Assembly (NCBI RefSeq): GCF_029582805.1
Contig: NZ_JAKKUT010000005.1
Location: 124,001-188,000 of the forward strand
Direction: 5' to 3'
DNA: 64,000 nucleotides
From: Candidatus Synechococcus calcipolaris G9
Lineage (GTDB): Bacteria; Cyanobacteriota; Cyanobacteriia; Thermosynechococcales; Thermosynechococcaceae
Part shown: one piece after another, positions 23,521 through 37,724 of the stretch
Numbering within the stretch: position 1 is the stretch's first letter
Layout of the letters: each line of letters begins with the position of its first letter
Notes under the pieces: model-generated
Databases searched by the model: none
What the model saw: only the letters and a program-made list of their open reading frames with translations
What the model was told of the DNA's origin: nothing
Translations under genes and position numbers: made by a program

Positions 23521-26500
23521 TTAACCAGGGCAAACCTGAGCAACATCTTTATTTTGGTAGCGATAGTCCCGTAGCCAGTCACAGGCATACTGCAAGAGTT
23601 CCGGCAACGGATAGAAAGCCGTGAGAATAATTTGATCATTTTGACCGGCGATCGCCACCACAGGAGGATTTGTGGCTGAAATATCTACGCCGTAGGAGAC
23701 ACCGGGAACTGCTGTTGTTTGCCCCAGGGGTTGGCCACTGCGGGACCAGAGACTCACGGTACGATCTTGGGATGCGGCGGCAATCATCTGACCGTCCGCA
23801 CTCAGACCTAGGCTGAGAATACTGCGTAAATGGCCACGAAACTGTTGATGGTTTTGCCCCTGGCCATTCCAAACATTAATCCAGCCCCCGTCCCCCCCCG
23901 CAATCAGGGTTTGACCATCTTGACTAAAACGCACCATCGCTAACCAGCCTTGGTTGGGTTCTAAGGTTTGCGCTAGGGTGCCGGCCTCAATGTTCCAGAG
24001 TTTGACACTGCCCCCTTCGCCGGTACTGGCTAAAAGTCCAGTCACGGGATTAATGCTTAAACTCCAAATACTTTCCCCCGAGCCACCAAAGCTCAATTGA
24101 CTCTGATCCTGAAGATTCAACCGATGAATCATCCCCTGACCATCCCCCGCCACCAGATAACGATCGTCGGGACTGACTGCGACGGTGTAGAGTCTTGCCT
24201 CACTGTGCCAAAGTTTTTCCGGTGGATCCATCTGTTCCTGTTGCCAGAGATAAATATCGTGACTCGCGGCGATCGCCACCTGTTGACCGCTGCTGGTAAA
24301 GGCCAAACTATTAATCCCCGCCGGATCCAGGATCGGTGTTTCCGCTAAAAAGGTACCATCCTTTTGCCAGAGACGTACCCGACCATCTTTTCCTCCCGTG
24401 GCCAGGGTTTCACCATCCGGGGCAAAGGCCAGGGCCCAAAGACTCTCTTGATTCGCCGGCCACACCCGATGACGCTGGTTCTTAATCTGCCATAGGTAGA
24501 TGCCACCGCCGCGATCGCTACTGATTAACCATTCCCCCTGGGTATCAAATTGCACACTATTGACAAACTGCTCATGGCCCCTTAGCTCCGTGTGCAGTAA
24601 GCCATTCTCATTCCAGAGGCGAATCACATTATCGTTACTGAGGGTAATTAAATAGCCACGGGGATCATAGCCGACGTAGTACACGGGCGCGGTACTGACT
24701 CGCCACTGATTTCGTTGCTGACCATTGCTATCCCATAGTCGTAAAATGCCATCGACCCCCACCGTCGCCAACAGGCCATCACCTAAAAACGTCAAACTAT
24801 TTTGATCTACCGGCTGATTGGGGGGAGCCTGCCAGTCCGCCTGAAGTTCTCCCCCTAGATTCCAGCGGCGAATATGGCCATCACTACCGGTGGTTGCCAG
24901 AAATTGACCATCGGGACTGTAGCTCATACTGTATCCCTGGCCTTGGTGGGCTGAAAATTCCCCCAGTAATTCTCCCTGGTTATTCCAGCGATAGACCCGC
25001 CCCTCCTTGCTCAAGGCGGCCATTTCCGTGTTGTCGGGACTAAAGCGAAAACTGACAATTTGGCTGTTGGCTCCCCCTAGTTTAGCCAGGAAGGTGATAT
25101 CCGGTTTCAGTTGCCAGAGTTCCACCATGCCGGACGTGGTTAACAGAGCGAGGCGATCGCCCTCTCTATGGAAACGGACACCACCAATATCGTCTCGGTT
25201 GAGGGGAAATTCAGCCTGGGGTAAACCAGCCTGATTCCAAAGGATTAATTCTCCCCCCTCACTAATGGTGACAATGGTTTCGGCATCGATAAACCCACTC
25301 CCCACCATGGAATTTTCTCGGGTATTCCCTGGGGCTTGCCACTGATTGCGGGCGTGAATCTGACCCAGTAGGGTATTCAGGGCAAAGATCGGCCGGGTGG
25401 TGGGGTAGTCACTCAGGGGAGTATTCCCAACCAATTCATCTAGAGTACGCCCCGCGGCGATCGCACTGACAAGGGCCGGTAATTCCTGGCCAGAAAAGCG
25501 ACTTAAGCTATCAATACTCTCCTGTTCTAGGGTCAGACTAATCCGCGAGGCGCGCAGATCATAGTTGGTTTTAATGAGGACGATACCCACCCCCAGGGAG
25601 AGTAACGACACCATGGCGAGGGCCGTCATGGCTTGGCGCATCAACCGTCTAGCCCGGTGTTGGGCCTGATCTAAAATAGCATTGGCCGCAGCGATCGCCT
25701 GCTTTTCCTGGCGTTCCAGGAGCAAGGTATGCTGCATTTCCCGCTGATTTAGATCTTGGCTGGCGGCAAAAAATTGATAATCTAAGTCCGACAAACTCTT
25801 GCCATTGGCCCACAGGAGGGCATCCTGGAGAGCCTGTCCCCGCAACAGCCGTGAACTATCCTGGCCCCCCGATCGCAACCACGCCTGAAAACTATCACTG
25901 TAGGGACGTAGCTGGGCGAGCTGCTCCTCCACCCAATTTCCATTGAACACATGGGCATAAATGGGATTAAAGACCTGCAACTGCCCCCACCGCTGGCATA
26001 CGAGTCCCGTCAAACTTAACGAGCGTTCCTCCGGACTATTATCCAGGGGAATACTGCCCTGCTCTAGAATTTTTTGATACATTCCCAGTAGACGGCCACT
26101 CCGCTGTTCATCGGCCAATAGACGGTTTCGTAGGGTTTTTAGATGCTCTGGCTCATCCTGCCGTTCCCAGTCCTGTAAGATCATTTTCTGAATGAGTCGC
26201 TCAACATGATCCTCCGCCTCTCCACTAGGGACAAACTGATCCCGAACCTGGAGAAGACGGCAAATTTTCTGGGTGAGAAAGGGTTGACCACCCGTCCAGG
26301 TTAAGACTGCCCTTAGGAGTGCTTGGGGCTGATCACTGAGGGAACGAATTCCCTCTAGGAGGGGTGTTGCTTCCTCTAACTGAAACCCTTCTAGGGAAAT
26401 GGCCCGGCCAATATTAAAGGGGGTGCGTTGTTTATCTTCAATCAGGCGATCGGGGGTGGCTACCCCCAAAAGGGCAAAGGTCAACCGCTGGTAACTGGGA

Positions 26501-27027
26501 TCATCGGCCCGTTGGTTATAGCAGGAACGGATCCAGGCAAAAAAGTCATCGGTGGAAAAGGGCAAGCTCAGGAGGCTATCCACCTCATCAATGAAAATCA
26601 CCAGGGGACAGGTGCGATGGTGCAGTAAGACCTGTTCCATAAATTCCCCAAGGCGATGAATGGGCGACATGAGTTGGCGATCGCGCCACCAAGACCGTAG
26701 ATTAAACACATCCGCCAACTGAAAGCTTTGGACAAGGGCACCAATCAGACTGGCATACCACTGATCCGCATTAATATTTTGACTACCGATTTTTGTAATA
26801 TCTAAGGCCGCACAGGCATAGCCATCCCCCTGAAGCCGCTGCATCACCTGTACCCGCAGGCTGGACTTCCCCATTTGCCGAGAATTTAAGACATAGCAAA
26901 ATTCACCTGCTCGCAAACCACCGTAGAGGTCGCGATCGGCTTGGCGTTCTACGTAGGTTGGACAGGCACTCGGTAAACTGCCCCCTACTTGGTAGGGGAC
27001 GGACAGATCAATTTCAGGACTAGACAT
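23521..27027 (-). CDS. AAA-like ATPase with C-terminal WD40 propeller repeats
   Basis: 1168 residues. The N-terminal AAA-like (AAA_35 type) NTPase has NSRQMGKSSLRVQ (Walker A) and LVIFIDEVDSLLS (Walker B). One membrane span lies at about 465-487 (TALAMVSLLSLGVGIVLI). About 14 WD40 repeats fill the C-terminal 600 residues (for example DGHIRRWNLGG, DGILRLWDSNG, DRTVSLWSRSG), enough for two propellers. Such NTPase-WD40 giants are common in cyanobacteria and are thought to act as signalling or conflict-system scaffolds. The span would leave the ATPase and propellers on opposite sides, or the segment may only be peripheral. Its start is 86 bases downstream of the RodZ-like gene's stop, on the same strand. 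Confidence 0.9.
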   Translation of the reverse strand: MSSPEIDLSVPYQVGGSLPSACPTYVERQADRDLYGGLRAGEFCYVLNSRQMGKSSLRVQVMQRLQGDGYACAALDITKIGSQNINADQWYASLIGALVQSFQLADVFNLRSWWRDRQLMSPIHRLGEFMEQVLLHHRTCPLVIFIDEVDSLLSLPFSTDDFFAWIRSCYNQRADDPSYQRLTFALLGVATPDRLIEDKQRTPFNIGRAISLEGFQLEEATPLLEGIRSLSDQPQALLRAVLTWTGGQPFLTQKICRLLQVRDQFVPSGEAEDHVERLIQKMILQDWERQDEPEHLKTLRNRLLADEQRSGRLLGMYQKILEQGSIPLDNSPEERSLSLTGLVCQRWGQLQVFNPIYAHVFNGNWVEEQLAQLRPYSDSFQAWLRSGGQDSSRLLRGQALQDALLWANGKSLSDLDYQFFAASQDLNQREMQHTLLLERQEKQAIAAANAILDQAQHRARRLMRQAMTALAMVSLLSLGVGIVLIKTNYDLRASRISLTLEQESIDSLSRFSGQELPALVSAIAAGRTLDELVGNTPLSDYPTTRPIFALNTLLGQIHARNQWQAPGNTRENSMVGSGFIDAETIVTISEGGELILWNQAGLPQAEFPLNRDDIGGVRFHREGDRLALLTTSGMVELWQLKPDITFLAKLGGANSQIVSFRFSPDNTEMAALSKEGRVYRWNNQGELLGEFSAHQGQGYSMSYSPDGQFLATTGSDGHIRRWNLGGELQADWQAPPNQPVDQNSLTFLGDGLLATVGVDGILRLWDSNGQQRNQWRVSTAPVYYVGYDPRGYLITLSNDNVIRLWNENGLLHTELRGHEQFVNSVQFDTQGEWLISSDRGGGIYLWQIKNQRHRVWPANQESLWALAFAPDGETLATGGKDGRVRLWQKDGTFLAETPILDPAGINSLAFTSSGQQVAIAASHDIYLWQQEQMDPPEKLWHSEARLYTVAVSPDDRYLVAGDGQGMIHRLNLQDQSQLSFGGSGESIWSLSINPVTGLLASTGEGGSVKLWNIEAGTLAQTLEPNQGWLAMVRFSQDGQTLIAGGDGGWINVWNGQGQNHQQFRGHLRSILSLGLSADGQMIAAASQDRTVSLWSRSGQPLGQTTAVPGVSYGVDISATNPPVVAIAGQNDQIILTAFYPLPELLQYACDWLRDYRYQNKDVAQVCPG

Positions 27028-28952: not shown

Positions 28953-29483
28953 TTATGTTTGCGAAGTGTTCATCTCGGCAAGGGATGCCAGAATTTGCTC
29001 TAGGTCAATCACAAAAATAGGGGGTAAATTGGCATTCTCTGGACTGGTGATCATGCGGGAACTGACACCATGAATATTTCCCCAATGTAAGTAGTTCTTT
29101 GGCAGGGGCGCAACCTGATCTGCCGGAACCCGCTCCAGAGTGGGTGGATCTGCAATGGGTAAACCAATTAACTCATGATCGCTACTTTCTTGACGTTGCA
29201 ATAGCAGGAGAAAACGCTGTTGATCTACTTCCGGGGACATCATTGCATCCCTAAATAGGCAGCACCCAATATCAATCACAAAAACTTCTTGATTTTGGTA
29301 CGTGATGAGGCCAATCCCGCCCCTTTCCGGATCCCCATGGATCTGATGGAGGGGAATAACTTTAAGAACCGTTTCAATGGGGAGGGCAAACTGTTCCTGA
29401 CGAATGGTAAAGGTGAGAAATTGCCGCAGGATAATCTGTTTGGCCTGACGATGGCGGAGCCGACGGGGGGAATTAATGGCCAT
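28953..29483 (-). CDS. CheW-like protein at the end of the pix operon
   Basis: 176 residues with a CheW-type fold: TFTIRQEQFALPIETVLKVIPLHQIHG, then GIGLITYQNQEVFVIDIG. Its start overlaps the end of the CheA gene by 11 bases, so translation is coupled. It would couple receptors to the kinase, or act as a second adaptor beside PixI. The Synechocystis pix operon, as I recall it, has no CheW at this place, so this gene is an addition. The N-terminus (RRLRHRQAKQI) is basic. Confidence 0.82.
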   Translation of the reverse strand: MAINSPRRLRHRQAKQIILRQFLTFTIRQEQFALPIETVLKVIPLHQIHGDPERGGIGLITYQNQEVFVIDIGCCLFRDAMMSPEVDQQRFLLLLQRQESSDHELIGLPIADPPTLERVPADQVAPLPKNYLHWGNIHGVSSRMITSPENANLPPIFVIDLEQILASLAEMNTSQT

Positions 29484-32400
29484 GGAGGGTTTCCCCGTTA
29501 ATGAGTTGGCGGAGGGATTTGAGGAGTTCGGTTTCCCGGAAGGGTTTGCTAAAGTAGGCGGCGGCCCCCAGATTAAAGGCGAGTTGACGGTGTTTATCGC
29601 CAGTGCGGGAGGTGAGCATGGTAATGGGTAGCTGTTGGCGATGCCCTAGGGTTTTGACATGGGCCAGAAATCCATAGCCATCGAGGCGGGGCATTTCAAT
29701 GTCACAGATGACGGCATCGACCCGTAAGTCGGTTTGCAGTTTGTCGAGGGCCTCTTGACCATCCTTGGCCTGTTCCACATGGTACCCTGCTTTTTCCAAG
29801 GTATTGGCGAGGAAACGACGGACATTGATGGAGTCATCTACCACCAGAATGGTTTCTTGCTGGGGCAGATTCAGGGTTGGGGCGGGTGGGCGGGCCGGGG
29901 CCCCATCTCCCAAGGAGGCGTGATCAAACCAACGCAATAGGGCCAGGGTATCAATGAGGGGGACAATCCGACCATCTCCCAAAATGGTGCAACCACTAAA
30001 GCCAGGGGGGAGGCCCATATCTCCGTCCACTTGGCGAATAGTTACTTCCTGTTCTCCCCAATAGCGATCGATTTCAATGCCAATTAAATCATCCCCTTGG
30101 GCCAGGAGCATGACGGTGGGATCGTTAATCGTGGGAATGGCATCCATATCTAAGGAGCGATGGGGCCGGCTAAAGCGGAAATAGTCCTGTAGTTGCACGA
30201 GGGGAATCATGTAGCCTTGCCAGTCAAGAATTTTTTGACCGACGGTTTCAATAATCGGGTAGCGATCGCGGAGCATCATTTCTTCGATCGCCTCGGTGGG
30301 AATCGCCACCAACATCCCTGCCACCTCGGCCAGGAGTACCCGGACAACGGATAGGGTATAGGGCACGGTGATTGTAAAGGTTGTCCCTTCCCCTAGGCGG
30401 GTTTCCACCCGGACATCTCCCCGCACTTGGCGCAGGTTGGTACGGACTACATCCATGCCCACGCCCCGGCCCGATAGGGAGGTGACTTGACTGGCGGTAC
30501 TAAACCCTGGCTCAAAGATGAGGTCAATTAACTCGCGATCTCTGGCACTATTCAGGGTTTGGGAATGAAATCCCAGTTGAAGTGCTTTTTGGCGCAGTTT
30601 TTCCGGATCAATGCCGCGGCCATCATCGGTAATGGTGATCACGGTTTGGTTGCCCCGGTAGGTGGCCCGCAACTCAATGTGCCCTTGGGGGGATTTCCCT
30701 TGGCGTTGGCGATCGCTGGGGGATTCAAGACCATGGTCAAAGGCATTGCGGACAATGTGCATTAAGGGATCACTCAAAATCGCTAATACCGAGCGATCGA
30801 TGAGGGTATGGCCCCCTTGAATATCCAGTTTGACCCGTTTACCATGTTCTTGGCAAAGGTGCCGAATTAAGCGTGGATAGCGATTGGCTAAGTCCGCAAA
30901 GGGTCGCATCCGAATTTGGGTAAATCGGGTTTGAAGTTGTTTCGCCGTGCGGTTGAGATCTCGGCTAGTATGCTCCGTATCCTCTAGGCCAATTTCTAAA
31001 TCACTGGTGATTTCCTGGATCTGAACAATGGATTCCATCACCTCTTGGGATAACAGGTGCAGATCACTGTAGCGATCGAACTCTAGGCTATCAAATCCCT
31101 GATGCCAATCTCCCCCCGGCAGGGAAGGGGTTAGGGGAGTCGGACTTCGCCCAGGGACAGTACTGAGGGATTCCACCGCGTTCCCCACCACCTTAACTCC
31201 ACTGCCAAAACGGTCGTAGCCTGTCCGCAAACGAAAATTAGACTGCTCTAAGGCCCGTACTTTGCCCTTGAGCATTTCCAGTAATTGATGGAGCCGTTCC
31301 AGTTGTAAATCTAACCCATTCCGTTCAATGGTTAATTCCCCAAACAGATCACTGAGGTGATCCAGTTGTTGAACCGCCACCCGCACGGTCATATCCTGAA
31401 TTTCCGGGGCGATCGCCCCTGGGGATGGGGTAGCAGGCTGGGATAGTGTTTGCTGATCAGTGGTCTCTTTTTGAGTAGTTTGGCTGGGGAATGAATCTAC
31501 CCCTAGAATGGTTTCGATGTCATCATCGTCCGTCTCGTCCTCAGCCGTCTCGTTGTCAACTGGCTCACCTTCAACTAGTTCATCGTTCATTGCGGCCAGG
31601 CTACCGCTATCCTCCCCTAAGGGGGGAACCTCTAGGGGGAACTCGCCACCGAGGACATCGGCCAAGCCTTCGAGATTGATTTGCTCCAATTCAAAATCCG
31701 CAAAGGATTCGCCATCAAAGCTATTCCCTAGGGCTGGTTCGGGGCGATCGCCGGTAACCGTCCCCTCGCCTAATTGGGGAACCGTTGAGTCTTCAAGTTG
31801 AATAACCGAAAATTCGTCTTCATCCCGTGCATCAACCTGATCAACTTCATCAATAAAGAGGGCATCCGCTGTCACGGTGGTACTTGATTCTAGGGGCATT
31901 ACTGGCATCGCGGTGGGATCAAAGTGATCCGGTAGGGCCGTGAGTTGACCAATCAAAACCAAGGCCTGCGATCGCCGCCATTGCTGTAATACCTGGGCTG
32001 CCAGAGTTCCCAGGGGAGTGGGGTTACTCTTGAGATAGTCATTGACGGAGGCGCAAAAAGACGTAAAGGCCGGTAGCTCCAGAATTTGACCGAGGCCTTC
32101 CAGTTCTTGGGCGGCAATTTCTAGCTCTTCTCGCAAACAGGGTTGGGCCGGGTCAGCAATCACCGCCTCAAGACGCTGAAGACAGGCTTCTACCTCTGAC
32201 TCAAAGAGCATCACCCGCATATCATTGCCCCCATCTTCCGAGAGCAGAGCCATTTCATCTTCTGCTTGGGGGTCGCCTAATATCTCCTGTAAATGGTTAA
32301 AGATGGGATCTGCTTGGCTACTCAGCCAGGAGGGTTTGGGTTCCGTGCCCTGTCGGGTTAGGGTAATGACCTGTTGCAGTTGATCCACTGCCCGGAGCAA

Positions 32401-32679
32401 CTCCTGCTGCACAAAGGCATCCACGGGACGGCCGCCCCGCAAAACCTTAAAGAAATCCTCCATGCGGTGGGCCAATTGACTCAGGTTTTGGAACCCCATC
32501 ATTGCCGCCCCGCCTTTAATGGAATGGGCCGCCCGCAAAATCCCATCCAGCCGCGATCGCCGCTCCTGCTCAGGAATATCCCCTAGCTCTAGGAGGCCGG
32601 TTTCAATCACCTGCAAATAATCCTGGGCTTCCTCCAGGAATTGCAGCCGTACCAGTTCATCTACACTAACGTCGGGCAT
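29473..32679 (-). CDS. pixL: CheA-type hybrid histidine kinase (PixL-like)
   Basis: 1068 residues. Domains: HPt with the phosphorylated His52 in AAHSIKGGAAMM, a long acidic linker (about 260-400), dimerisation helices, the kinase with N-box HIVRNAFDHGLE, G1 ITDDGRGID and G2 GRGVGMDVVR, a CheW-like regulatory domain and a C-terminal receiver with Asp993 in CDIEMPRLDG. It autophosphorylates under receptor control and passes phosphate to PixG, PixH and its own receiver. The operon order (PATAN-CheY-CheW-MCP-CheA) is that of the positive-phototaxis pix system of Synechocystis. The gene starts six bases after the pixJ stop. Confidence 0.9.
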   Translation of the reverse strand: MPDVSVDELVRLQFLEEAQDYLQVIETGLLELGDIPEQERRSRLDGILRAAHSIKGGAAMMGFQNLSQLAHRMEDFFKVLRGGRPVDAFVQQELLRAVDQLQQVITLTRQGTEPKPSWLSSQADPIFNHLQEILGDPQAEDEMALLSEDGGNDMRVMLFESEVEACLQRLEAVIADPAQPCLREELEIAAQELEGLGQILELPAFTSFCASVNDYLKSNPTPLGTLAAQVLQQWRRSQALVLIGQLTALPDHFDPTAMPVMPLESSTTVTADALFIDEVDQVDARDEDEFSVIQLEDSTVPQLGEGTVTGDRPEPALGNSFDGESFADFELEQINLEGLADVLGGEFPLEVPPLGEDSGSLAAMNDELVEGEPVDNETAEDETDDDDIETILGVDSFPSQTTQKETTDQQTLSQPATPSPGAIAPEIQDMTVRVAVQQLDHLSDLFGELTIERNGLDLQLERLHQLLEMLKGKVRALEQSNFRLRTGYDRFGSGVKVVGNAVESLSTVPGRSPTPLTPSLPGGDWHQGFDSLEFDRYSDLHLLSQEVMESIVQIQEITSDLEIGLEDTEHTSRDLNRTAKQLQTRFTQIRMRPFADLANRYPRLIRHLCQEHGKRVKLDIQGGHTLIDRSVLAILSDPLMHIVRNAFDHGLESPSDRQRQGKSPQGHIELRATYRGNQTVITITDDGRGIDPEKLRQKALQLGFHSQTLNSARDRELIDLIFEPGFSTASQVTSLSGRGVGMDVVRTNLRQVRGDVRVETRLGEGTTFTITVPYTLSVVRVLLAEVAGMLVAIPTEAIEEMMLRDRYPIIETVGQKILDWQGYMIPLVQLQDYFRFSRPHRSLDMDAIPTINDPTVMLLAQGDDLIGIEIDRYWGEQEVTIRQVDGDMGLPPGFSGCTILGDGRIVPLIDTLALLRWFDHASLGDGAPARPPAPTLNLPQQETILVVDDSINVRRFLANTLEKAGYHVEQAKDGQEALDKLQTDLRVDAVICDIEMPRLDGYGFLAHVKTLGHRQQLPITMLTSRTGDKHRQLAFNLGAAAYFSKPFRETELLKSLRQLINGETLHGH

Positions 32680-32685
32680 TGTGAT

Positions 32686-35421
32686 CTAGCCCTCCGCACT
32701 CACCTTAAAGGTGTCCACTGAAGCCTGTAGGGTTTGGGCGACGGCTACCGTTTCTTGCAGGGAATCGGAAATATGTTGAGAGGTGGCGGACATCCCCTCC
32801 GAGACCTTGGCAATGTCCTTCATCAGCGTGTTCACCGTATTGGAGGTGTGGGACTGGGACACGGTGGATTCGGAAATAGACTGCACCAGTTCATCAATGT
32901 GGTGGGACACTTCCACAATTTCCTCCAGGTTTTTCTTGGCGGTTTCCACGAGGCGGGTTCCCTCCACCACCTGGGATGTGCCGGTTTCCATCGCCGCTAC
33001 TACTTCGTTGGTCTCCTGTTGAATCGCTTCCACAATCTGTTCAATTTCCTTGGTTGCCGCCGCCGATCGCGCCGCCAGTTCCCCCACTTCTTCCGCAACC
33101 ACTGCAAAACCACGGCCTTCTTCCCCTGCCCGCGCCGCCTCAATACTAGCGTTAATGGCTAAAAGGTTTGTTTGTAGGGCAATCTGGTTAATCAGCGAAA
33201 TCACCTTAGAAATCTGTTGGGAGGACTCCCCTAATCGCTTCACTTTTTTAGCGGTTTCGGCAACGGTTTCCCGGAGATGCATAATACTCTGCACCGTTTC
33301 ATCCATCGTTTCCCCACTGGTTTGGGCGGTTTCTGAGGCATGACGGGCAACCTCAGCGGCTTGGTTGGCACTGTGGGTCACGGATTCAATAGAGGCAGAC
33401 ATCTCTTCGATCGCCTCCAGCATCCGATTAATTTTCTTGGCCTGGCGCAGGGATTCCTTCGCAAGCTGGCCCATGGCGGTTTCATCTTCACTGAGGGACG
33501 CATTCACTTGACTGGTGGCGGTTTTTACCTGGATCACCACTTCCCGCAGACTTTCAATCAGGGAGTTAAAGATGTCCGCCACCGTGCCAATTTCCCCGGC
33601 GGTAATGTCAGCCCGCACCATCAGGTTCCCCTGGGAGGCTTCTTCAACCTCCGAGAGCAAGTTAATCAGTTGTAGTTGAATATCTTCCGTTTGACGTTGG
33701 CGATCGGCCGCCAGGGTTTCTGCTTTTTGGCGGGCGGCCTCCGTCTCCCGCAGGAAGTTGGCCCGCTCAATCACTAAGCCGAGTTGGGTTGCCAATTGGG
33801 TGAAGAAATCAATTTCCGACTGTTGCCATTGGCGGGGGGCATCACACTGGTGGGCAATGAGGAGGGCAACCAGCTTCTGCTCGACGAGCATGGGGGCGAC
33901 AAGATTGGCTTTCACGCCTAGGGGCTTTAATTGACCCAAGTAACACTCGTTTAAGTTGGCGGCATCAATGTCGGCGGTGGCCTGTACCCGCCCTTTTTCA
34001 TAGGCCTTAATCCAGTTTTTGCGGAAGCAAGGATCGTCAATGGTTTGCTCTAGGGCCTTGGGCCAACCCTCGCCCACGGACTCTGCCACCACCGTACCGA
34101 CCCAGTTGGGATCAAATTCGTAGACAATGACCCGATCGCTTTGGAGTATCTGGCGAATGTCGGCCACCCCCTGGGCTAAAATTTCCGAGGTGGATTTGAA
34201 CTGGGACAAGCGCAGGGTTAAATCCCGGAGAAACTTGGCCCGCTGTGCTTCTAGGGCCTGCTGGGTATTGGCGGCTTCCGTCCGCGCTAAAAGATTGGCC
34301 CGGACGAGGGCTAACCCCACCTGGGTGGCCATCTGGGTAAAGAAACTCACTTCAGCGGTTTGCCATTGGCGCGGCCCAGAGCATTGATGGGCAATTAAAA
34401 GAGCCACCAGTTTTTGATCGACGACGAGGGGAGCCACCAAATTTGCTTTTACCCCTAGGGGTTCCAGTTGCTTTAGGTAGCAGTCATTCAGATTAGCCTG
34501 GTAAATATCGGCGGTGGCCTGAACCCGTCCCTTTTCGTAGGCCTTAATCCAGTTTTTGCGGAAGCAGGGGTCATCAATGGTTTGCTCTAGGGCCTTGGGC
34601 CAACCGTCCACCACGGACTCTGCCACCACCTTGCCAGCCCAGTTGGTGTCAAATTCGTAGACAATGACCCGATCGCTCTGGAGAACCTGCCGGATTTCGG
34701 TGACGGCGGTGTCCAAAATGTCGGTGGGCGTTTCCTGCTCGGCAATACGGAGGGTCATTTGGCTTTGGCACTTCCCTAGGTAGGCCTCTCGGGATTGTTT
34801 AGAAAGAATGCCTTGAATTTGTATGGCCATGTGGTTGATGTTTTGGCCAAGATGGGCTACCTCATCTTCCCCAGTTACGGATAAACGGGCGGAGAAGTCC
34901 CCCTGGCTCAATTTTTCAACGGTTTCATTGGCGGCAATCAGGGGCCGTAAACTGCGCTTGATCAGGTAGGCGGCGATCGCCCCAACCCCCAAGGCCGTAA
35001 TCAGGGTACCGCCCACCACCACCCATTGCAAATGTTGCAGATCATTGACCCGTTGGCGTAGATAGATTTCAGCGGCTGGGTTTTCTCCCTGTTGGCTGCG
35101 GGCACGGGCAACCGATTGCTCCATGGACCAGTAGGCCACGCCGCCGACTGCGACCACCGGAATCACCCCTAGGGCAAGGGCCGTGGCTAGTAACTTGGCC
35201 TGCAAGCGGGCCCTGGGTGGAGATGGTTTTTCGGCAAGGGGAGAAGGCTGAATATCCGTTGTCCCTGGGGCTTGACTAGACACGCCATTGCTACCATGAC
35301 CATTGGCTCCATTGGTAACTTCGGGATGGGCATTCAAAACCGAATCGGGTAAAACCGGGGGCTGAATTGGGGCCGTAGCTCCTTTTTTGGAGGGGTTAGG
35401 ATTGGGTTGGGTACGGGTCAT
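32686..35421 (-). CDS. pixJ: Photoreceptor chemotaxis protein PixJ with two DXCF cyanobacteriochrome GAF domains
   Basis: 911 residues: a Pro-rich N-terminal tail, membrane spans at about 77-98 and 133-153, HAMP (about 154-206), GAF1 (about 225-380), GAF2 (about 404-560), and an MCP signalling domain ending with the hairpin tip [21 protein letters not shown]. Both GAFs have DPCF (Cys286; Cys465) and a second Cys 28 residues on (NDCY Cys314; NECY Cys493). That is the two-cysteine layout of DXCF cyanobacteriochromes such as TePixJ (Cys494/Cys522, also 28 apart), which carry phycoviolobilin and switch between blue- and green-absorbing states. Only one short loop faces the periplasm, so sensing is by the GAFs. 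Blue/green phototaxis sensing is inferred. Confidence 0.92.
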
Positions 35422-35481: not shown

Positions 35482-36015
35482 TTAGCCGCGCATCGCCAAA
35501 ATATCTGCCCCAATAATCGCCCGCGGATCCAGGACAAGGAGCATCTCACTATCGAGGAGACAGCACCCACTCAGGTAAGGGACGAGGGCGGCGGGCACAG
35601 TTCCCACAGGGGATTGGATGGCATCGGGCATCAGGCGAATCACGCCCCGAATTTGACTCACCGCTAGGGCCAAGGGCTGCTGATCAACCCGAACAATGGC
35701 GATCGTCTGTTGGGGCATATCCATGGGCAGACTGGGCAGGTCGAGCAGATGGGGCAAGTCCACGACCCAAACCACCCGGTTGCGGTGATTTAGCAGGCCA
35801 ATGACGGGGGGCGGCATGTTGGGCATGGGCGTAAGGCGCAGGGAGGGAACTACCAAGACCTCTTGGGTTTGTTGCATCGGCAGAATGGCACTCAGACTAT
35901 CGCTCAGTTGTAACCGTAAATAGGCTTCCCCTTGACGGCGCGATCGCCCTGATTCATCCAAGGTGGTGGCAAAGGATGCTAATTGATCTTCGCGGGAAAT
36001 AATCTGGCGATTCAT
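35482..36015 (-). CDS. pixI: CheW-like adaptor (PixI-like)
   Basis: 177 residues with CheW beta-barrel features: LRLQLSDSLSAILPMQQTQEVLVVP, then PPVIGLLNHRNRVVWVVDLPHLL and a C-terminal half ending LVLDPRAIIGA. It links the PixJ receptor to the PixL kinase. It lies between the CheY-like gene and the receptor gene, as in the known pix order, about 50 bases from each neighbour. Confidence 0.87.
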   Translation of the reverse strand: MNRQIISREDQLASFATTLDESGRSRRQGEAYLRLQLSDSLSAILPMQQTQEVLVVPSLRLTPMPNMPPPVIGLLNHRNRVVWVVDLPHLLDLPSLPMDMPQQTIAIVRVDQQPLALAVSQIRGVIRLMPDAIQSPVGTVPAALVPYLSGCCLLDSEMLLVLDPRAIIGADILAMRG

Positions 36016-36064: not shown

Positions 36065-36427
36065 CTAGATCACCACGGACTTGAGGGCCCGCAGGAGATC
36101 ATCCCGATTAAAGGGTTTGGTGACATAGGCATCCGCCCCCTGTTTCATCGCCCAGAGACGATCCAGTTCTTGGTTTTTTGAAGTACACACAATAATTGGC
36201 AGCTTTTCCGTGTCAGGGTTTTTCTTGAGACTGCGGCACAGTTCAAAACCACTCATTCCCGGCATCACCACATCGGTGACCACCACATCGGGCTTAAATT
36301 GACTCACTTTTTCCAGGGCTTCCTTTGCATCCGTTGCACTGATTACGGAGTAACCACTGTCCTTCAAAAATGAGGTGATTAAGGCCATTTCCGAGGGGGT
36401 ATCTTCAACGACTAACACCGTACTCAT
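36065..36427 (-). CDS. pixH: CheY-like response regulator (PixH-like)
   Basis: 120 residues, a receiver domain alone. Acidic pocket VVEDTPSE, phosphoacceptor Asp52 in VVTDVVMPG, Thr/Ser switch in IVCTSKN and the Lys of VTKPFNRD. In the pix pathway this single-domain regulator is phosphorylated by PixL and acts with PixG on the type IV pilus motor. It is about 70 bases downstream of pixG. It is similar to the stand-alone regulator at 2857-3222. Confidence 0.88.
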   Translation of the reverse strand: MSTVLVVEDTPSEMALITSFLKDSGYSVISATDAKEALEKVSQFKPDVVVTDVVMPGMSGFELCRSLKKNPDTEKLPIIVCTSKNQELDRLWAMKQGADAYVTKPFNRDDLLRALKSVVI

Positions 36428-36500: not shown

Positions 36501-37724
36501 CTAACTTAGATATTGAAAGACCATTTTCAGGAGTTCTGCTTGGGTGAATGGTTTCGTCATGTAGTCCGTGGCCCCGACAAGGCGTGCCTTGGCGCGATCG
36601 ATTAAGCCGGTATTCCCTGTCACCATAATGATCGGTGTTTGCTTAAATCGCTCATGGTTGCGAATGACTTTACAGAATTTATAGCCATCAATATTGGGCA
36701 TACCCACGTCTAGCAGGATCAGATCCGGCTTGATCCGCATCACATCCATCAAGGCTTTGACGGAATCATTGAGGGTGACAACGGAAAAGGCATCATCGGA
36801 CAAAAATCGGCTCAGTTCATTGAGCATCGTCGGGCTGTCATCAATACAGACAATGGTGTATTGCCGCTGGAGATTGGCGATCGCCGGAAAGCCGGTACTC
36901 AAATCTCCCGAATCATCCAGATCTACGGGAGCGGCATCCTCAAAGGAGCAGGTATCAAATCGGGGTAATTGATCAAAGGGGGCCTGGGGTTCCCGCACGA
37001 CAATGACACCCCCACCAATGAGGGGATAGAGGCTCTTGACTAACTGAAATTCATCCTGGTTGAGGATCACAGCCAAATGCCGGAAACTAAAGCCCCGCAG
37101 CAAACTGCCCAGGCGTTGTTGTTGCTCAAGGCTGAGATTGCCCTGGCCACCATGACCAAAAAAGTAGGGCCGCTGGAAGGGAGAACTGATTTTTTCACCC
37201 CAGGCCTGCCATTTGCGAATATTGGCTTTACACTCATCAACTAATATCCCTGGGGTAAACTGGGCGACCACCGGCACATCCAGAAAACGTACCAGTTGGT
37301 GAGTCCCCTCCCGTAAACACAGGTAAGATTCCAGTACCTCTAGAATCAGTTGACGGATCAGTTCACCGGCCTCCTCCACCGCAAGAATACCTTCATTCAC
37401 TAACCAGCGAATGCTTTCGTACTCACAAATGGGGGTGGGGGTTTGGGCTAAATCCCATTGCTGTCGTACCTGGGCCCGAAATTCCCGGGTTAAGACCTCA
37501 TTCCTTTGACTGAGCCGACGCAGATGTCGCTCAAAGCGATCGCCCGGATCAATGGTATGGGTCGCATAAATCAAAAATCCCTGATCAAGATAAAGAAACC
37601 AATGGTTCCCCTGACTGGTCAGTTGCAGACAGCCTGTGCCCCCAGATTCGGCTAACTGTTGCAAGAGACGTTCAGGATTGAGCATCATCTGGGTTTGAGT
37701 ATTAATATCAATAGACTGAACCAT
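36501..37724 (-). CDS. pixG: PATAN-domain response regulator (PixG-like)
   Basis: 407 residues. The N-terminal two thirds is a PATAN/DUF4388-type domain (LAESGGTGCLQLTSQGNHW, FLIYATHTIDPGDRF, HLRRLSQRNEVL), followed by a C-terminal receiver with VCIDDSPTMLN, phosphoacceptor Asp339 in LLDVGMPNIDG and the Lys in MTKPFTQAEL. PixG/PatA-type regulators control the pilus extension motor in cyanobacterial phototaxis. It is the first gene of the operon, with pixH, pixI, pixJ, pixL and a CheW gene following on the same strand. Confidence 0.9.
   Translation of the reverse strand: MVQSIDINTQTQMMLNPERLLQQLAESGGTGCLQLTSQGNHWFLYLDQGFLIYATHTIDPGDRFERHLRRLSQRNEVLTREFRAQVRQQWDLAQTPTPICEYESIRWLVNEGILAVEEAGELIRQLILEVLESYLCLREGTHQLVRFLDVPVVAQFTPGILVDECKANIRKWQAWGEKISSPFQRPYFFGHGGQGNLSLEQQQRLGSLLRGFSFRHLAVILNQDEFQLVKSLYPLIGGGVIVVREPQAPFDQLPRFDTCSFEDAAPVDLDDSGDLSTGFPAIANLQRQYTIVCIDDSPTMLNELSRFLSDDAFSVVTLNDSVKALMDVMRIKPDLILLDVGMPNIDGYKFCKVIRNHERFKQTPIIMVTGNTGLIDRAKARLVGATDYMTKPFTQAELLKMVFQYLS

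Follow-up and report, generated by a model that had tools for sequence, protein, structure and literature searches.

The stretch of DNA analysed here (the window; 64,000 nucleotides from Candidatus Synechococcus calcipolaris G9) contains the full pixG-H-I-J-L gene set. Gene names were assigned from domain content and gene order, and pixJ was delimited from the ORF listing and Pfam:

28953-29483, minus strand: further CheW-like gene, immediately downstream of pixL (domain content)
29473-32679, minus strand: pixL, CheA with Hpt, HATPase, CheW and receiver domains (domain content)
32686-35421, minus strand: pixJ, 911 aa (ORF listing and Pfam; TM helices read by eye)
35482-36015, minus strand: pixI, CheW-like (domain content)
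36065-36427, minus strand: pixH, CheY-like receiver (domain content)
36501-37724, minus strand: pixG, DUF4388/PATAN-like domain plus receiver (domain content)

The CheW-like gene at 28953-29483 is extra to the usual pixGHIJL set. Elsewhere in the window, positions 23521-27027 encode a protein of 1168 aa in which WD40 repeats follow an AAA-like domain.

The PixJ protein starts with two probable TM helices, assigned by eye only, that flank a short extracytoplasmic loop; a HAMP domain, two GAF domains (GAF1 and GAF2) and an MCP signalling domain follow. A Pfam domain search of the 911-aa protein recovered the HAMP domain (residues 153-203), two GAF stretches and the MCP signalling domain, and found no dCache domain. 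Both this layout and the complete gene set are those of a PixJ system, and by its sequence the protein is a predicted phototaxis receptor of a Thermosynechococcus-family cyanobacterium.

The sequence-only reading had held that TePixJ uses only its second GAF for the chromophore. This attribution was mistaken: TePixJ has a dCache domain and a single GAF, and the result in question was reported for Synechocystis PixJ1 (PMC5812497). The PixJ of genome G004 has a GAF identical to the TePixJ crystal sequence, which is the sole tie of that genome to T. elongatus, and is composed of a dCache domain, two HAMP stretches, one GAF and an MCP domain; its orthologues in G022 and G009 share this arrangement, HAMP number apart. 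A dCache domain with one GAF is the plan found in the nearest relatives of the window PixJ. TePixJ (PDB 4FOF/4GLQ/3VV4) resembles the window PixJ in its DXCF GAF of the same lineage, the cysteine spacing of 28 residues, the HAMP and MCP domains and the host family, but its one GAF is of the Cys-His type, whereas both GAFs of the window protein are Cys-Tyr. Synechocystis PixJ1 (SyPixJ1, tax1/pix operon) likewise possesses two TM helices, two tandem GAFs and an MCP domain and is accompanied by the same pix genes; in contrast to its chromophore in the second GAF only, the window PixJ keeps the cysteines in both.

Motifs, fold and putative bilin pockets of the two GAF domains

The two GAF domains and the linker between them lie as follows:

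34273-34752, minus strand: GAF1, residues 224-383 (DPCF Cys286 at 34564-34566, canonical Cys314 at 34480-34482)
33742-34215, minus strand: GAF2, residues 403-560 (DPCF Cys465 at 34027-34029, canonical Cys493 at 33943-33945)
34204-34359, minus strand: inter-GAF linker, one continuous predicted 52-residue helix (model residues 150-201, corresponding to PixJ residues 355-406)

Each domain thus carries the D-x-C-F motif with the canonical cysteine 28 residues on, exactly at the residue positions claimed from the sequence alone. Searched with the pattern D-x-C-F...G-[RS]...C-Y, the window gives exactly two hits, and 100 shuffled sequences give none. The sole further DXCF-pattern match in the source genome (L125; G000:C2:74591) is a Cys-His GAF; the protein that carries it resembles GGDEF-EAL in its C-terminal part and is laid out like the Thermosynechococcus protein L140, which has Cys-Tyr.

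An alignment of the two domains and a comparison with other PixJ proteins had been proposed as a check. Carried out here, the comparison yielded PixJ proteins with one, two, three, five and six GAFs, and the alignment an uneven likeness: 115 of 157 aligned codons specify the same residue (73%), and DNA identity is also 73%. The description of the domains as near-identical therefore suits the central block (90% amino acid and 89% nucleotide identity over 61 codons) but not the whole domains, with protein identity falling to 35% in the N-terminal flank and 71% in the C-terminal part. The 20-residue protein stretch said to be common to the two is indeed present in both, as are long identical DNA runs, the longest being 32, 29, 29 and 20 nt. 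Compared with the TePixJ GAF, GAF2 is 57% and GAF1 51% identical, GAF1 being thus somewhat more diverged.

In the AlphaFold2 model, which spans GAF1 and GAF2 with a mean pLDDT of 90.4, the same fold occurs twice; the mutual arrangement of the domains is less certain than each fold because the pTM is 0.63. By Foldseek, the model matches the TePixJ GAF structures 4fof, 4glq and 6p58 with target-normalised TM scores of 0.86-0.92 and 54-58% identity, and both domains are predicted to adopt a TePixJ-like GAF fold. The Cys-to-Cys spacing across the linker is 179 residues, one heptad above the common value of 172.

By alignment, the TePixJ residues D492, C494, W499, R507, C522, Q526, L527 and N535, whose roles in the pocket have been described (PMC6955287, PMC7504144), are present in GAF1 and GAF2 alike. 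Both domains depart from TePixJ at two positions: H498N, where Asn also occurs in most of the Thermosynechococcus PixJ proteins compared, and H523Y, by which the canonical cysteine is followed by Tyr instead of the typical, though not universal, His. Among the 242 sampled genomes of the class, a Cys-Tyr DXCF domain is found in 116 and a Cys-His one in 192. Moreover, the TePixJ genome itself has a Cys-Tyr example in a CBS...GAF-GGDEF protein, the layout of which agrees with Tlr0924 (SesA), a blue/green receptor that holds about 80% PVB and 20% PCB (PMC4067208). Tlr0924 is a lone GAF in a CBS...GGDEF protein and no taxis receptor, but it shares the Cys-Tyr DXCF GAF with the window PixJ. Since Cys-Tyr is common and present in a Tlr0924-like protein, it does not disqualify a DXCF GAF, and the notion that this Tyr is rare or disabling was dropped.

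The earlier view that both GAFs look competent is consequently upheld: cysteines and the pocket residues checked are kept save for two substitutions that are tolerated elsewhere. Because both domains retain the bilin-binding residues, and because the source genome encodes heme oxygenase and PcyA for chromophore supply, two bilins per PixJ chain are likely. Alternatively, only GAF2 might bind a bilin, GAF1 being a decaying copy with a structural or dimerisation role as in Synechocystis PixJ1. Besides the PixJ1 precedent itself, the lower similarity of GAF1 to TePixJ would fit such a division, as would a PixJ1-like protein of the genus f31 g54 (L113; G224), whose first GAF is without the DXCF cysteine. 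However, in two congeners of that genome (L112 of G090 and L114 of G235) both DXCF GAFs are intact, with 79% and 87% identity, and in the window PixJ GAF1 has the same complement of cysteines and pocket residues as GAF2 and has been homogenised with it over the DXCF region (see below). We therefore regard binding by GAF2 alone as unlikely.

Origin of the GAF pair

The identity between the domains is concentrated in a central tract, delimited from codon statistics in both copies:

34507-34683, minus strand: conversion tract in GAF1, residues 247-305 at its widest (core 34576-34677)
33970-34146, minus strand: conversion tract in GAF2, residues 426-484 at its widest (core 34039-34140)

Within the core of 34 residues (249-282 and 428-461), 93% of the codons for identical residues are themselves identical, as opposed to 46-48% outside, and permutation of the codons equalled this clustering in 21 of 20000 runs (79 of 50000 with slightly different domain limits). 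Over the wide tract of 59 residues, synonymous identity amounts to 78% vs 42% outside (Fisher p = 1.1e-4), figures for tract limits that were set post hoc and fitted to the data. Outside the central tract, the synonymous identity of 42-48% is at the between-genus level. In a phylogenetic tree, GAF1 and GAF2 are sisters (support 96/96), and removal of the tract leaves the pair in place with lower support (82/91); for a tree from the tract alone the alignment is too short to give resolution.

These data favour an old, lineage-specific duplication that was followed by a short gene conversion around the DXCF motif. Conversion over a core of about 100 bp, or up to about 177 bp, would have re-homogenised the middle of the domain after the duplication. 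Of the two origins named in the sequence-only reading, recent duplication or gene conversion, the latter thus stands in the form of a short tract. Recent duplication of an entire domain could account for the sister position of the GAFs in the tree and for identical DNA runs of up to 32 nt, but it was rejected on the synonymous identity of the flanks, which is no higher between GAF1 and GAF2 than to other genera and so speaks for an old event; in the truly recent case found in genome G207, identity is high across the whole domain (96% protein, 99% synonymous). We consider such a recent origin extremely improbable. Very improbable, too, is that the central DNA identity results from constraint at the codon or RNA level. 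The block encodes the best-conserved portion of the domain, as this explanation would demand, but comparison of each GAF with 12 single-GAF orthologues from within the family gives the block a synonymous identity of 0.33-0.69 (mean ~0.46) and not 0.78-0.93, and neither GAF exhibits a consistent excess over the flanks in the tract block against these 12 orthologues. Codon constraint is hence insufficient and was rejected on this comparison; furthermore, conversion-like tracts sit at other positions in other arrays. For CBCR domains in general, a conversion tract of this kind would mean that DNA identity need not imply recent duplication.

Multi-GAF PixJ proteins in other cyanobacteria

Many cyanobacteria have PixJ proteins with GAF copies in tandem, and proteins with one to five GAFs have been described (PMC13383048). 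One, two, three, five and six GAFs were counted among the PixJ proteins compared here. The PixJ-like MCP of genome G039 (L039:5842-10569) has six tandem DXCF GAFs, one above the published range, the third and fourth being 97% identical in protein. Five DXCF GAFs are found in G058, which belongs to the same genus as G039, and in the genus of G044 (G044, G062 and G088), and three in G007 and G010. All these proteins, the closest multi-GAF relatives in the comparison, resemble the window PixJ in having tandem DXCF GAFs before the MCP domain with a spacing of 172 or 179 residues, but they differ in copy number, and Cys-His prevails in most.

When G039 is set against G058, outer copies pair as orthologues and inner copies cluster by genome, which implies recent expansion or homogenisation. 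Conversion-like tracts recur in unrelated arrays, lying at differing places in G039, G058 (38/38 codons), G207 (36/36 and 53/53) and G088. Adjacent DXCF motifs are 172 (24 pairs) or 179 residues (9 pairs) apart in 33 of 36 pairs, the seven extra residues falling in the linker helix by alignment; these spacing and tract counts are approximate because they include related species and overlapping loci of one array, de-duplicated by exact sequence only, so that not all loci are independent. Genome G207 possesses two further tandem DXCF arrays (L115:4037-5143 and L116), with no MCP signature seen in a simple motif check; the recent pair mentioned above is that of L115 and would reflect either duplication in the very recent past or conversion of the full domain. 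Tentatively, and with somewhat less than even confidence, we suggest that tandem arrays of bilin-binding PixJ GAFs evolve in concert, with shifts in copy number within genera, short conversion tracts that repeatedly re-homogenise adjacent copies, and linker helices held to heptad-compatible lengths.

Proposed working of the receptor and its significance

Taken as a whole, the locus quite probably encodes a PixJ with two bilin-binding DXCF sensors, derived from an old duplication and a short gene conversion. By analogy with TePixJ and Tlr0924, each GAF would attach one phycocyanobilin via its canonical cysteine (Cys314 and Cys493) and convert all or part of it to phycoviolobilin, and the DXCF cysteines (Cys286 and Cys465) would form a reversible second thioether in a blue/green photocycle. 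The pockets are so alike that GAF1 and GAF2 are expected to sense identical or almost identical colours. A light-driven change would be passed from GAF1 via GAF2 to the MCP tip along a continuous helix, and from the tip to CheA (PixL), PixH and PixG. A wider light-intensity range or cooperative switching from two bilins, as the sequence-only reading proposed, is speculation.

PixJ is among the few proposed direction-sensing photoreceptors. Tandem DXCF GAFs in PixJ are already known, and the window protein adds another example; we found no explanation in the literature for the several similar bilin GAFs in many PixJ proteins. If the arrays do evolve in concert, the gain for PixJ would lie in several same-colour photosensors placed in series on one coiled-coil rod, a serial design that might serve for more photon capture or for a graded or cooperative output. 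Together with its relatives with one, three, five and six copies, the minimal two-GAF PixJ offers a clean test series, which could reveal whether extra chromophores act on sensitivity, dynamic range or cooperativity.
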